Assembly (NCBI RefSeq): GCF_016900315.1
Contig: NZ_JACSNQ010000001.1
Coordinates: forward strand, 1-64,000
Reading direction: 5' to 3'
From: Olsenella profusa
GTDB lineage: Bacteria; Actinomycetota; Coriobacteriia; Coriobacteriales; Atopobiaceae
DNA: 64,000 nt
The notes under the pieces were generated by a model. The model was given only the letters and a program-made list of their open reading frames with translations, ran no database searches and had not been told where the DNA came from. A program made the position numbers and the translations under genes. Below are positions 17,169 to 56,280 of this stretch, one piece after another (position 1 is the first letter of the stretch; each line of letters opens with the position of its first letter).

Positions 17169-17259
17169 TGTGTCGATGGGGCATGGGAGCGTGCCCGTCA
17201 AGCGCGTCGTTACCATGCGCTTATAGCGAACATGCGCCGGATATGGGCGCCTCCGTCAG

Positions 17260-17585
17260 GTGCACTCCTCAGGAGCACCTCTCAGGTGCACCGCTCAGGT
17301 GCACCGCCAAGAGCGCTCAGGTGCACTCCCTGGGTGCATTCCACAGGCGTACTCCTCAAGTGCACCGCCGAGAGCGCCAATCTTGCGTTAAGTGCACCGA
17401 GATTGACGTATTTCTCGTCAAGTGCACTGGGGGTCGGGTGCACTTGAGGAGTGCACTTAGGCAGTGGGGTACACCTGAGGCGTGCGCTTGGGCAGTCCGG
17501 CGCACCTGGCGAGTGCACTTAAGCAGCCGGGTGCGCCAAAGCAGCCAGGTGCACCTGAACGACCTGACACACGTGCGGAGTGCAT
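17260..17585. repeat. Dense array of GTGCAC palindromes
   Basis: GTGCAC occurs exactly at 17260, 17286, 17299, 17321, 17360, 17392, 17422, 17438, 17451, 17513 and 17549. Near-copies (GTGCAT, GTGCGC, GTACAC) lie at 17334, 17469, 17482, 17531 and 17580. Flanks often extend the palindrome, for example CAGGTGCACCTG at 17547-17558 and AGTGCACTT. It fills the 360 bp directly before the acyltransferase gene. Confidence 0.85.
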
Positions 17586-24481: not shown

Positions 24482-25225
24482 ATGGTGCGCGTGGCTCGGC
24501 AGGTCTCCGGCTCTGGCTACTATCACGTTGTCCTGCGGGGAAGCGGGCGGCAGGTCATCTTCGAGGACGACGCCGACCGCCGCGCCTTTCTTCTCGCCGC
24601 GCAGCGCTGCCTCGTGGGGGCCGGCGTCGCCGTGGTCGCCTGGTGCCTCATGGACAACCACGCCCACCTCATCGTTCGCGACGACGCCGATTGCCTGAGC
24701 GGGGCGGTCCATCGGCTCGCGACGACCTACGCCCGCCGCTACAACGTTCGGACCGGTCACGTTGGCCACGTGTTCCAGGAGCGTTTCCGCAGCTCGCCGA
24801 TCGAGGACGAGGCCTACCTGCTCGAGGCCGTTCGCTACGTTCACAACAATCCCGAGAAGGCGGGCGTGTGCCGCGCGGAGGAGTACCCATGGAGCAGCTA
24901 CCCCGACTACCGGGGCCGTCCGCACGAGGAGCTCGCGGTGGAGCGTGACGTCGTACTGGGGCTCCTCGGCGGCGAGGAGGGGTTCGCCGAGTTCTGCCGC
25001 GCCTCCGCCGGGCCGTACCGGCCGCCGTCGGGCGCCCGGCTGGACGATGGGGAGGCGCTGGAGGCCGCCCGCCGCGTGCTCGGGGAGGTCACGCTCGCCG
25101 AGGTGCAGACGCTGCCGCCGGCCCGGCGAAACGCGCTGCTGCGCGCCCTGCGGGACGAGGGGCTCTCGGTCAGGCAGGTGGAGCGCCTGACGGGCGTGGG
25201 GAGAAACATCGTGGCCCGTGCGTGA
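24482..25225 (+). CDS. REP-associated tyrosine transposase (RAYT, Y1_Tnp/IS200-like)
   Basis: A 247-residue HUH-type single-strand nuclease. The N-terminal SGYYHVVLRGSGRQVIFEDD and the metal-binding His-x-His in CLMDNHAHLIV (about 54-64) are intact, followed by RTGHVGHVFQERFRS and the tyrosine-bearing YLLEAVRYVHNNPEKAGV. The C-terminal part (about 195-247) ends in an HTH-like LSVRQVERLTGVGRNIVAR. RAYTs are usually single-copy, domesticated-looking genes that process REP palindromes. This one lies exactly between inverted TGAGACA...TGTCTCA elements. The frame is uninterrupted, so it may be active. Confidence 0.9.
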   Translation: MVRVARQVSGSGYYHVVLRGSGRQVIFEDDADRRAFLLAAQRCLVGAGVAVVAWCLMDNHAHLIVRDDADCLSGAVHRLATTYARRYNVRTGHVGHVFQERFRSSPIEDEAYLLEAVRYVHNNPEKAGVCRAEEYPWSSYPDYRGRPHEELAVERDVVLGLLGGEEGFAEFCRASAGPYRPPSGARLDDGEALEAARRVLGEVTLAEVQTLPPARRNALLRALRDEGLSVRQVERLTGVGRNIVARA

Positions 25226-25351
25226 GCGGTCGACGCGCGGCGGGCACGGCGTGCGCCGTGGGGGCGTCGCGCGGTGCCGCGGCGTGTGAGCTTCGGGCGC
25301 GTGAGCTCCGCAGAGACCGGGCCCTGCGGGGCATGAGCATCAGATATTCAA

Positions 25352-25416
25352 TGAGACAAAAGAACCTGTCCCCAATGTCTCCCAATGAGACAAAAGAACC
25401 TGTCCCCAATGTCTCA
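25352..25416 (-). repeat. Two tandem REP palindromes downstream of the transposase
   Basis: Two copies, 25352-25381 and 25386-25416 (34-bp period), beginning TGAGACAAAAGAACCTG and ending CCCCAATGTCTC. They are in reverse orientation to the copy at 24364. The second copy, read on the minus strand, begins with the TGA stop codon of ilvA. Confidence 0.9.
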
Positions 25417-37866: not shown

Positions 37867-37898
37867 GGGCGGCGTCGTCTGTGCGGACGGCGCCGCCC
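37867..37898 (+). terminator. Terminator of rho
   Basis: GGGCGGCG (37867-37874) pairs with CGCCGCCC (37891-37898), followed by TTCTCGTTT, a weak T-rich tail. Confidence 0.6.
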
Positions 37899-38029
37899 TT
37901 CTCGTTTGTGCGCTTGTTCGCTCGCTCGACCTGCGCCCCGGCCCGCCCGCGCTGCGTTTCTTGCACCCCGCTCTGCTCGCTCGCCCTTCTCGCCCCCCGT
38001 TCGCCCGCGCCGCGCTCTTCTCGCATCGC

Positions 38030-38134
38030 GCTTTGAAATGCGGACCTCTTTCGGCCGGGTGCTTTGAAATGCGGACCTCTTTCGGCCGGGTGCTTTGGGA
38101 TGCGGGCCGCTTTCGGCTGCCCGCTTTGAAAACC
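38030..38134. repeat. 31-bp tandem repeat starting GCTTTGAAA
   Basis: Units start at 38030, 38061 and 38092 (exact 31-bp period). The first two are identical, starting GCTTTGAAATGCGGACC and ending TCGGCCGGGT; the third has diverged. A fourth start, GCTTTGAAAACC, lies at 38123. It has no coding role that I can see. Confidence 0.9.
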
Positions 38135-38153
38135 GAGGTGGTTGTGCCTGAGG

Positions 38154-38174
38154 CCGCCTGTTTGGCGGGCTTTT
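38154..38174 (+). terminator. Hairpin at the centre of the two repeat arrays
   Basis: CCGCC (38154-38158) pairs with GGCGG (38164-38168), then GCTTTTGTG. The stem is short. It lies at the symmetry point between the forward 31-bp and the inverted 42-bp arrays. Confidence 0.4.
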
Positions 38175-38199
38175 GTGTCGGATTGAGTGCGACAGGTCA

Positions 38200-38343
38200 G
38201 GTTTTCAAAGCGCCGCCGTGTCCGTAGCGCGCAACAGGTTCGGTTTTCAAAGCGCCGCCAAACCGATCACGCGAAACGATCTCGGTTTTCAAAGCGCCGC
38301 CGGCCCGGCCATGCGCAACGCCCTCGTATATCAAAGCGCCACC
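38200..38343. repeat. 42-bp tandem repeat starting GGTTTTCAAAGCGCCGCC
   Basis: The 18-bp core GGTTTTCAAAGCGCCGCC is exact at 38200, 38242 and 38284 and degenerate at 38326 (GTATATCAAAGCGCCACC), with an exact 42-bp period. The 24-bp intervals vary but share GCGCAAC-like parts. GGTTTTCAAAGC is the reverse complement of the GCTTTGAAAACC in the array at 38030-38134. The period is a multiple of three and an open frame runs through it, but codon content and lack of a start argue against a gene. Confidence 0.9.
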
Positions 38344-38439
38344 AGCCCGGCCAGTCGAGAAGAGCCCAGCCGCACGCGCGCCGCGGCGCAGGCCCCGCGC
38401 AAACCGGGTGACGTGCGTAAACCGGTCGTTTCCGTCCCC

Positions 38440-38469
38440 TTGCACGGGGGGCGGAAAACCGGTTATATT
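38440..38469 (+). promoter_or_regulatory. Promoter of the unknown membrane protein gene
   Basis: TTGCAC (38440-38445), an 18-bp spacer and TATATT (38464-38469), about 145 bp before the start codon. Confidence 0.6.
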
Positions 38470-38613
38470 CTTTGTCGTCGAGCATTCGGCACAGTCACGG
38501 TACACGAAGATGAAACGCAGCCCACGCCGTCGACGCACCAGCCCCGCCATTGGGGCGCAATCTCATGGTTCGAGGGCCGTCTCGTCTTCCTTCCCCGGAA
38601 GGAGCGGGAGCGC

Positions 38614-39891
38614 ATGAACAGAAGAAACCCTGCCGTCGTTGCTGGCCTTGCCGGCACCCTGGCGCTCGGTGCGCCCCGGGCTGCCGGCGCCCTCTCGCTG
38701 ACCGAGGCCATCGACGGCCTCCTTCCCACCCCCACGATCGCCTTCTCCGCCGGCGTCATCGGCGGGGCGGTGCTCACCGGAGCCGTTATCGGCACGGCGA
38801 CGCTCGTCTCTCGTCGCCGAGCCCGTCGGGACGCCGAGGCGTCGAGTGCTTCTTCGCTCGTGCCCACGCCCGAAGCCGGGGGCTCGGCCTCTGCCGAGAA
38901 GGACCGGGACGCCGAGAGCGCGTCACCCGCGGAGCGCGGAGCCGCCGCCGGGTCGGCGAGAAGGCCACGCCACCTGCGCACCGACGTCCCCGACGACGAG
39001 CCGGAGGCCCCTCGCGCTGCCGCGCCCAGGGCTGACGCCGCGCCTGCAGACGCCGACGCCCCCTCAGCCCCCGCTCGCCCCGGCGCCCGCCACGCCGCGA
39101 CCGACTACGAGCAGATTGCCACCAACTACGTGGGCTGCGCGAGCTTCCGCGAGCGGATGGCGCACCGCGCTGCCGGCGTGGCGGCCACGCTGCGCGAGCG
39201 CATGGGAGCAAGCCGGATGGAGGGCGTGCCCGTGATCGAGCGCGCGGACGGGTCCGTTGGCGACGTGGGCACCTCATGGTGGGAGCTGGCGGTGGGCTCT
39301 GCGCCCGCCCCGTCCGTCACCATGAGCGACCTCGCCTCGGCGGCGGCGTCCGCCGCCATCCCGTCGGACTTCTCGGTGACTGACGCCGAACGCCTGGCAG
39401 CGGCGGCACGTCGCTCCGCAGACATCTCCCGGCGCGTCGCCCTTGTGGACGAGGGCGCCTACCCCGAGCACCGGACCGTGGACGACCTCTCCGCCGACGA
39501 CGACTGGGCGGCGGCGCTCCGCTCGCTCGACGAGCGCATTGCGGAGGAGGGCCCGACTCAGGACCCCATTGGCTTTATCGACGTTGCCGGCGGCGCCGAC
39601 ACCCTCGACGAGCCCGACGGCCTCGAGCCGGACACCTCCTTCATCCCGTTCAAGACCCCGGCGGGCCACCCCGAGGTCGTGGACACGGACTCCTACGTCG
39701 ACTACCTCATCCAGGACGAGTTCTCCAAGAACTCCTCGACCGCCGCGCGTCGGAGCTCGCGCCGCTTCCTGCGGGTCCTCGAGGGCGGCACCCAGGCCAC
39801 GCAGGGCGCCTCGCGTCACCTGGCGGACGCCGAGCCGCGGACGGGACACGCCGCCAAGCACTTCCCGGCGCCAGAGGCGGCAGAGGCGTAA
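38614..39891 (+). CDS. Unknown membrane-anchored protein with a large disordered region
   Basis: I do not recognise a family. In 425 residues there is an N-terminal hydrophobic signal-like segment (VVAGLAGTLALGAPRAAGAL, about 7-26) and a second one (IAFSAGVIGGAVLTGAVIGTATLV, about 39-62) followed by RRRARRD. Next comes a long Ala/Glu/Asp/Pro-rich disordered stretch to about 160, then two more ordered blocks: DYEQIATNYVGCASFRERM and a C-terminal SYVDYLIQDEFSKNSS. I chose the ATG at 38614 behind GGAAGGAG. The open frame extends upstream through the repeat array but without a credible start. It overlaps the VanZ gene by one base (TAATG), so they are co-translated. Confidence 0.7.
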   Translation: MNRRNPAVVAGLAGTLALGAPRAAGALSLTEAIDGLLPTPTIAFSAGVIGGAVLTGAVIGTATLVSRRRARRDAEASSASSLVPTPEAGGSASAEKDRDAESASPAERGAAAGSARRPRHLRTDVPDDEPEAPRAAAPRADAAPADADAPSAPARPGARHAATDYEQIATNYVGCASFRERMAHRAAGVAATLRERMGASRMEGVPVIERADGSVGDVGTSWWELAVGSAPAPSVTMSDLASAAASAAIPSDFSVTDAERLAAAARRSADISRRVALVDEGAYPEHRTVDDLSADDDWAAALRSLDERIAEEGPTQDPIGFIDVAGGADTLDEPDGLEPDTSFIPFKTPAGHPEVVDTDSYVDYLIQDEFSKNSSTAARRSSRRFLRVLEGGTQATQGASRHLADAEPRTGHAAKHFPAPEAAEA

Positions 39892-56109: not shown

Positions 56110-56123
56110 TTTCAACTGAATAT

Positions 56124-56199
56124 GGATCGTTAGCTCAGCTGGTAGAGCAGGGGACTCTTAATCCCAAGGTCCAGGGTTCGAACCCCTGACGATCCACCA
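56124..56199 (+). tRNA. tRNA-Lys (anticodon CTT), copy 1
   Basis: A 76-nt cloverleaf with encoded CCA and anticodon loop CUCUUAA. The anticodon stem has an apparent G-A end pair (27-43). Identical to copy 2. Confidence 0.95.
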
Positions 56200-56204
56200 T
56201 CTTT

Positions 56205-56280
56205 GGATCGTTAGCTCAGCTGGTAGAGCAGGGGACTCTTAATCCCAAGGTCCAGGGTTCGAACCCCTGACGATCCACCA
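56205..56280 (+). tRNA. tRNA-Lys (anticodon CTT), copy 2
   Basis: Exact duplicate of the tRNA at 56124-56199, five bases further on. It is followed by the cluster terminator. Confidence 0.95.

Follow-up and report, generated by a model that had tools for sequence, protein, structure and literature searches.

Helix-phased convergent repeat arrays between the genes of Olsenella profusa and its relatives, candidate sites of a DNA-binding protein

What is the repeat island that lies downstream of rho in the 64,000-nucleotide stretch of DNA analyzed here (the window)? An earlier note had described it as two tandem arrays that face each other and share one inverted 12-bp core. We observed that positions 38029–38338 contain eight copies of a 25-bp motif, four on the + strand followed by four on the − strand, and that this island sits between the likely rho terminator and the promoter-like element and leader of the next gene. 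The downstream gene, taken in the note to encode an unknown membrane protein, has no Pfam match, and the gene after it is VanZ-like. The features of the island and its flanks are listed below, with the scores given in bits of a matrix for the 25-bp unit.

37867..37898 (+), hairpin that is likely the terminator of rho; lies upstream of the island
38014..38024 (−), GCGAGAAGAGC, one mismatch from the core of a dispersed 12-mer (described further below); just outside the + arm
38029..38053 (+), + arm unit 1; left half GCTTTGAAAT strong, right half weak; 18 bits, or 16.6 bits with the window left out of the matrix (leave-out score)
38060..38084 (+), + arm unit 2; 31 bp, or three helical turns, from unit 1; leave-out score 17.4 bits
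38091..38115 (+), + arm unit 3, the weakest, with core GCTTTGGGAT; leave-out score 9.4 bits
38122..38146 (+), + arm unit 4, innermost; leave-out score 22.5 bits
38147..38187, island centre, between the arms; the core-to-core distance across it, 88 bp, is one of the quantized values
38154–38168, small, terminator-like hairpin in the island centre
38188..38212 (−), − arm unit 1, innermost; leave-out score 22.7 bits
38230..38254 (−), − arm unit 2; a step of 42 bp, or four turns; exact fit to the genome-wide pattern; leave-out score 28.3 bits
38272..38296 (−), − arm unit 3; leave-out score 27.0 bits
38314..38338 (−), − arm unit 4, outermost; left half degenerate; leave-out score 23.0 bits
38355..38365 (+), TCGAGAAGAGC, two mismatches from the core of the dispersed 12-mer; just outside the − arm and inverted relative to GCGAGAAGAGC
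38460..38517 (+), promoter-like GGTTATATTC (TATATTC) and conserved leader ACGAAGATGAAACG of the next gene

The core starts reported earlier (38030, 38061, 38092 and 38123 on the + strand; 38200, 38242, 38284 and 38326 for the inverted cores) were recovered exactly, and a small hairpin is indeed present between the arms. The inverted core is shared by both arms as had been claimed, but its length of 12 bp was an underestimate: the repeated unit is 25 bp long, with a GCTT..RAW half followed by a conserved second half, GRcYGTTGCR. Its consensus in the home genome (the genome from which the window comes) is YGCTTAsRRAWtsSsGRcYGTTGCR. The differing 24-bp intervals noted in the second array were in part an effect of taking the unit too short, since only about 16–17 bp after each 25-bp unit are actually unconserved. 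The cores are spaced 31, 31 and 31 bp apart in the + arm, 88 bp across the centre and 42, 42 and 42 bp in the − arm, where the inverted cores end at 38211, 38253, 38295 and 38337 and the last one is degenerate (GCTTTGATATAC).

With at most one mismatch allowed, GCTTTGAAA matched eight times in the 64 kb, and seven of these eight matches fell inside the 310-bp island; the whole-window mean after shuffling was 3.2. When the window was withheld and a 25-bp matrix was trained on the remaining islands of the home genome, all eight window units still scored more than 9 bits, as did just one further site in the window. The reversed window gave zero matches at 11 bits with the full matrix.

Does the motif occur elsewhere? 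A genome-wide search and a comparison among relatives, both suggested by the earlier note, were clearly positive. A pattern derived from the first few loci, GCTTNNNRAWNNNNNNNNGNTGC, produced 138 exact matches in the home genome compared with 3 for the reversed pattern, and the matrix produced 273 matches in 326 kb chosen around the pattern matches compared with 9 in the reversed sequence. We counted at least 34 islands (about 40) with three or more units and 268 units in all, the count of 34 being a lower bound from the roughly 16% of the genome, around islands, that was read. The islands contain 3 to 12 units each, and the layout is ++..−− in 34 of 34. Conservation is confined to the 25 bp (mean unit identity within an arm, 0.67), and the spacers are near background (0.35 within an arm and 0.31 between arms). 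Selection on the motif is indicated, as the information lies in the 25 bp while the spacers stay near background.

The islands are dispersed over many contigs and are intergenic. By simple in-house gene calls, none of the 34 lies inside a called gene, and the 31 islands with both neighbours called lie between converging (11), tandem (16) or diverging (4) genes. Ordinary genes, among them rho, clpX, pth and yebC, adjoin the islands; genes flanking the islands or lying between them were considered as cargo or as the reader of the motif and rejected, being ordinary genes only.

Units are separated by whole helical turns, whether they lie in the same arm or in opposite arms. Of 200 steps between units of one arm, 187 measure 41 or 42 bp (four turns), and the remainder are 31 bp (three turns), 51–52 bp (five), 83 bp (eight), 40 bp or 43 bp. 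There are three 31-bp steps in all, every one of them in the window island, and the 83-bp step probably hides a degenerate unit. Across the centres of the 34 islands, the distances are 57, 60, 66–68, 77–78, 87–88, 108–110, 130, 140 and 150–151 bp. Their best period is 10.4 bp (R = 0.918), a value reached by none of 20,000 random sets under a simple null in which distances are drawn uniformly; when the modal 66–68 class was removed, R was 0.88 and was again matched by no random set. Quantization at 10.4 bp is the signature of proteins bound to one face of double-stranded DNA.

Is this geometry shared by the relatives? Searching 31 congeners for two GCTT..RAW cores one period apart gave counts such as 196, 126 (the home genome), 87, 50, 49 and 47 in array-rich genomes, compared with 0–5 for the reversed pattern. 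The left half of the unit is mostly kept across congeners and the right half differs: it is GTTGCR in the home genome, RTCCGG in G006, TTATGGCA in G020, about GATGC in G022 and GTAGTTGTAG in both G040 and G004, and G001 holds two motif families, CGTCTCAG and GGTTGGAGGG. Most islands were located through the motif, and the arrays of two congeners through a motif-blind scan, which revealed arrays with other left halves, GCCGAGAAAA..CTGTACC in G014 and GGGCACGGATT..GGGCGTC in G009. A further 45 islands in seven congeners, built on other motifs, are all ++..−− with periods of 41–42 bp, so that 79 of 79 islands are convergent, and the phase of the centre distances is common to the congeners and the home genome (4.9 versus 4.8 bp at 10.4 bp). 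Thus, the architecture recurs in congeners, and its geometry is kept while the motifs are species-specific.

Beyond the genus, an order-level search gave scattered matches only, except for G214, a different genus of the same family with clear facing arms, steps of 41 and about 31 bp and another motif, and G105, a third genus with a one-sided array. Among the matches listed for a three-unit pattern in named genomes, arrays of this family were recognized in a single Atopobiaceae MAG, on two contigs.

From these regularities we infer a binding protein, a complex and a role. The window island likely belongs to a family of helix-phased convergent arrays, dispersed over the genome, that provide sites for a putative sequence-specific DNA-binding protein. 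Each 25-bp unit would be the site of a protein with two contact regions, which in the home species would be GCTTA-RAAW on the left and GRcYGTTGCR on the right. About eight proteins, 3, 4, 5 or 8 turns apart, would bind cooperatively in a row along a single face of the helix. Together, the two facing arms would form a symmetric nucleoprotein complex in which the centre is bridged or wrapped. Such a complex, without direction and placed between transcription units, might organize or insulate the DNA or copy the element itself; because it would be symmetric and lie between operons, we favour an organizing, insulating or self-copying role over promoter control.

Could the islands instead be mobile? 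A mobile element with multi-site ends is the serious remaining rival, possible though on balance unlikely: the arms would be transposase or recombinase sites at the ends of a very short, miniature element, which would spread by transposition or through the repair of breaks initiated at the centre. The relatives with a readable region downstream of rho have no such island there, and the leader of the next gene begins 128–307 bp after rho in most relatives where it was found, compared with 679 bp in the home genome. The window island is therefore extra DNA, and the lack of counterparts in relatives fits mobility; no closely related empty site could be aligned at base resolution. Near copies exist among the islands of G006 and G020, the best-aligned pair matching in the centre and inner units and differing in the outer ones. 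Several contigs of these two genomes stop within an array, as would happen if the copies were too long for the assembly to bridge. Two islands of G214, 435 kb apart, share a near-identical centre, and the ++/−− symmetry is itself compatible with transposon ends. On the other hand, the home genome has no island pair that are copies of each other, and similarity there is limited to the motif in phase; unit number is variable; no fixed ends were seen among the near copies compared; and neighbouring islands are separated by ordinary host genes rather than cargo. Nor was a carrier found among the viral contigs scored, where the two-unit pattern matched 29 times and the unit matrix gave a phased convergent array in none. 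The suggestion in the earlier note of a recombination or replication element lacks direct support, although in some relatives the centres of islands appear to have been copied from one locus to another. Islands come and go between species, and the islands as well as their specificity seem to turn over quickly. The gap downstream of rho holds other repeat-rich insertions in G014 and G020 (L228, L225), made of TTTTGGGCAA repeats and CCCCGTGG repeats, and may be an insertion hot spot.

Repeats of the REP/BIME/REPIN type, moved by RAYT (Y1_Tnp) transposases, are also dispersed, intergenic and inverted, and Y1_Tnp genes occur in 28 of the 31 congeners, with one in the window at 24515–24850. This explanation is nevertheless largely refuted and must be regarded as improbable. 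Helix phasing is not known from REP systems. Single units of the arrays are not palindromes, six of seven fold no better than shuffled sequences, and G020, which is 99% complete and rich in arrays, has no Y1_Tnp match. The non-palindromic units and the arrays of G020 indicate that these are not REP/RAYT elements, and the same genome rules out a RAYT as the reader. The earlier note had taken a core scattered widely as ordinary REP elements to speak against its proposal; the core is widespread, but the islands made from it do not track RAYT transposases. The likeness to REP, BIME and REPIN repeats thus extends to dispersal, intergenic position, inverted pairs and lineage-specific sequence, whereas a 25-bp non-palindrome, helix phasing and arms of several direct units set the arrays apart (PMC3116915, PMC2817692).

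An RNA element, in which the arms would pair in the transcript as a long hairpin and act as a terminator or processing site, is quite improbable. The window island does fold slightly better than shuffled sequences (z = −2.3). However, opposed units of the same island are hardly more alike (0.627) than units of different islands (0.615), which argues that arm pairing is not conserved, and the arms of the window have different periods (31 and 42). Quantization of the centre by the DNA helix would be unnecessary for an RNA, and an Rfam search of the window returned tRNAs only, the island matching no known structured RNA family.

Tandem duplication by slippage, without function, is refuted for the family and very improbable as a general explanation. 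It does account for some of the copies: unit 2 of the + arm is a near-identical 31-bp copy of unit 1, which points to a local tandem duplication, and this, together with the weak right halves of that arm, indicates that slippage contributes in the window island, as it does in a few other units that are local copies. The divergence of the spacers, however, excludes slippage as the main cause, the motif is common to tens of loci, the arms converge without exception, and the phase is kept between species with different motifs. The preference of the earlier note for paired binding sites over slippage alone is therefore strongly supported by a motif that is conserved without its spacers and by helical phasing within and between arms. 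Translation of the open frame at 38173–39891 into a 14-residue peptide repeat (GFQSAA...RN) is scarcely credible, for although the frame is open and 42 bp divides evenly into codons, 41-bp steps, which break any reading frame, are common elsewhere (53 of 200 in the home genome and most steps in G006), and the islands lie between genes.

How do the candidate protein-binding arrays compare with other known systems? The sopC centromere of plasmid F is an array of tandem 43-bp repeats bound by SopB into a large complex. It resembles the islands in having tandem units about four helical turns apart that are read by a DNA-binding protein, here a putative one, but sopC is a single site beside the par operon without two facing arms, whereas the arrays described here form tens of islands between ordinary genes and differ in motif from species to species. 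A centromere (parS or sopC), expected beside parA/parB or near the origin, fits poorly, as the islands are spread over many contigs beside ordinary genes. Tn7-like ends carry several TnsB sites, direct within each end and inverted between ends, an arrangement shared by the arms, with a site length that is roughly similar; the islands differ in their variable unit number, and no transposase gene, cargo or fixed ends were seen. CRISPR arrays combine a conserved repeat with unique spacers of constant length, as the islands do; in the islands, however, the repeats are degenerate, the arms are two and face each other, and the spacing follows helical turns. A CRISPR array was rejected because the mean within-arm identity is too low for one and no cas genes were seen beside the islands, whose sampled immediate neighbours are ordinary. 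The TAACTGA repeats of Beggiatoaceae also form many sets of intergenic direct repeats with a putative reader, but the heptamers lie mostly just upstream of start codons, in a single orientation in nearly all sets, and are described without two facing arms (PMC4679880).

Among the bacterial repeat classes considered, none combines helical-turn spacing at tens of loci, strictly facing arms and a motif that changes between species. In a search of open-access papers, arrays of this kind were not found described.

A second motif accompanies the arrays. The dispersed 12-mer GGCGAGAAGAAC occurs 506 times in the home genome (16 exact copies in the window), compared with 0 for the reversed pattern, and about 100–360 times in each of seven congeners searched; copies are plentiful in the genus and moderately numerous in some other genera of the family. 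The 200 kb read of the complete genome of the relative G041 contain zero copies and also zero arrays. The 11-mer core of GGCGAGAAGAAC is 6–7 times denser between genes than within them. In island centres, its density rises by a further factor of about 12, to 13 exact copies in 1.3 kb, spread over 12 of the 34 islands. A functional link between GGCGAGAAGAAC and the arrays is possible, and the 12-mer resembles a DNA uptake or chromosome-orienting signal.

The window holds other repeats. At 17256–17560 is a second facing-repeat island, in which TCAGGTGCACC is followed by its reverse complement with steps of about 13–16 and 31 bp. About 500 bp from the RAYT-like Y1_Tnp match, a perfect 34-bp tandem repeat with inverted GAGACA/TGTCTC ends lies at 25349–25415; the two are possibly a RAYT with its own REPs. 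A perfect 81-bp tandem duplication at 56123–56280 carries a tRNA gene twice.

Returning to the arrays as protein-binding sites, the candidate reader protein and its motif appear to co-evolve. We tentatively suggest a system that spans the genus, and probably the whole family Atopobiaceae, in which a fast-evolving putative DNA-binding protein may mark tens of inter-operon boundaries with symmetric helix-phased complexes, the protein and the motif changing together. The boundary complexes might, for example, anchor loops or act as barriers to SMC complexes or polymerases, and the joint change of protein and motif might be driven by self-copying of the sites through homing or gene conversion from the centre. 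The architecture by itself predicts a specific kind of protein complex and offers hundreds of candidate sites with which to fish for the binder. If the suggestion is correct, the arrays would represent a new chromosome-organizing or self-spreading system in Actinomycetota and would offer a natural experiment on how a DNA-binding protein and its sites evolve together.
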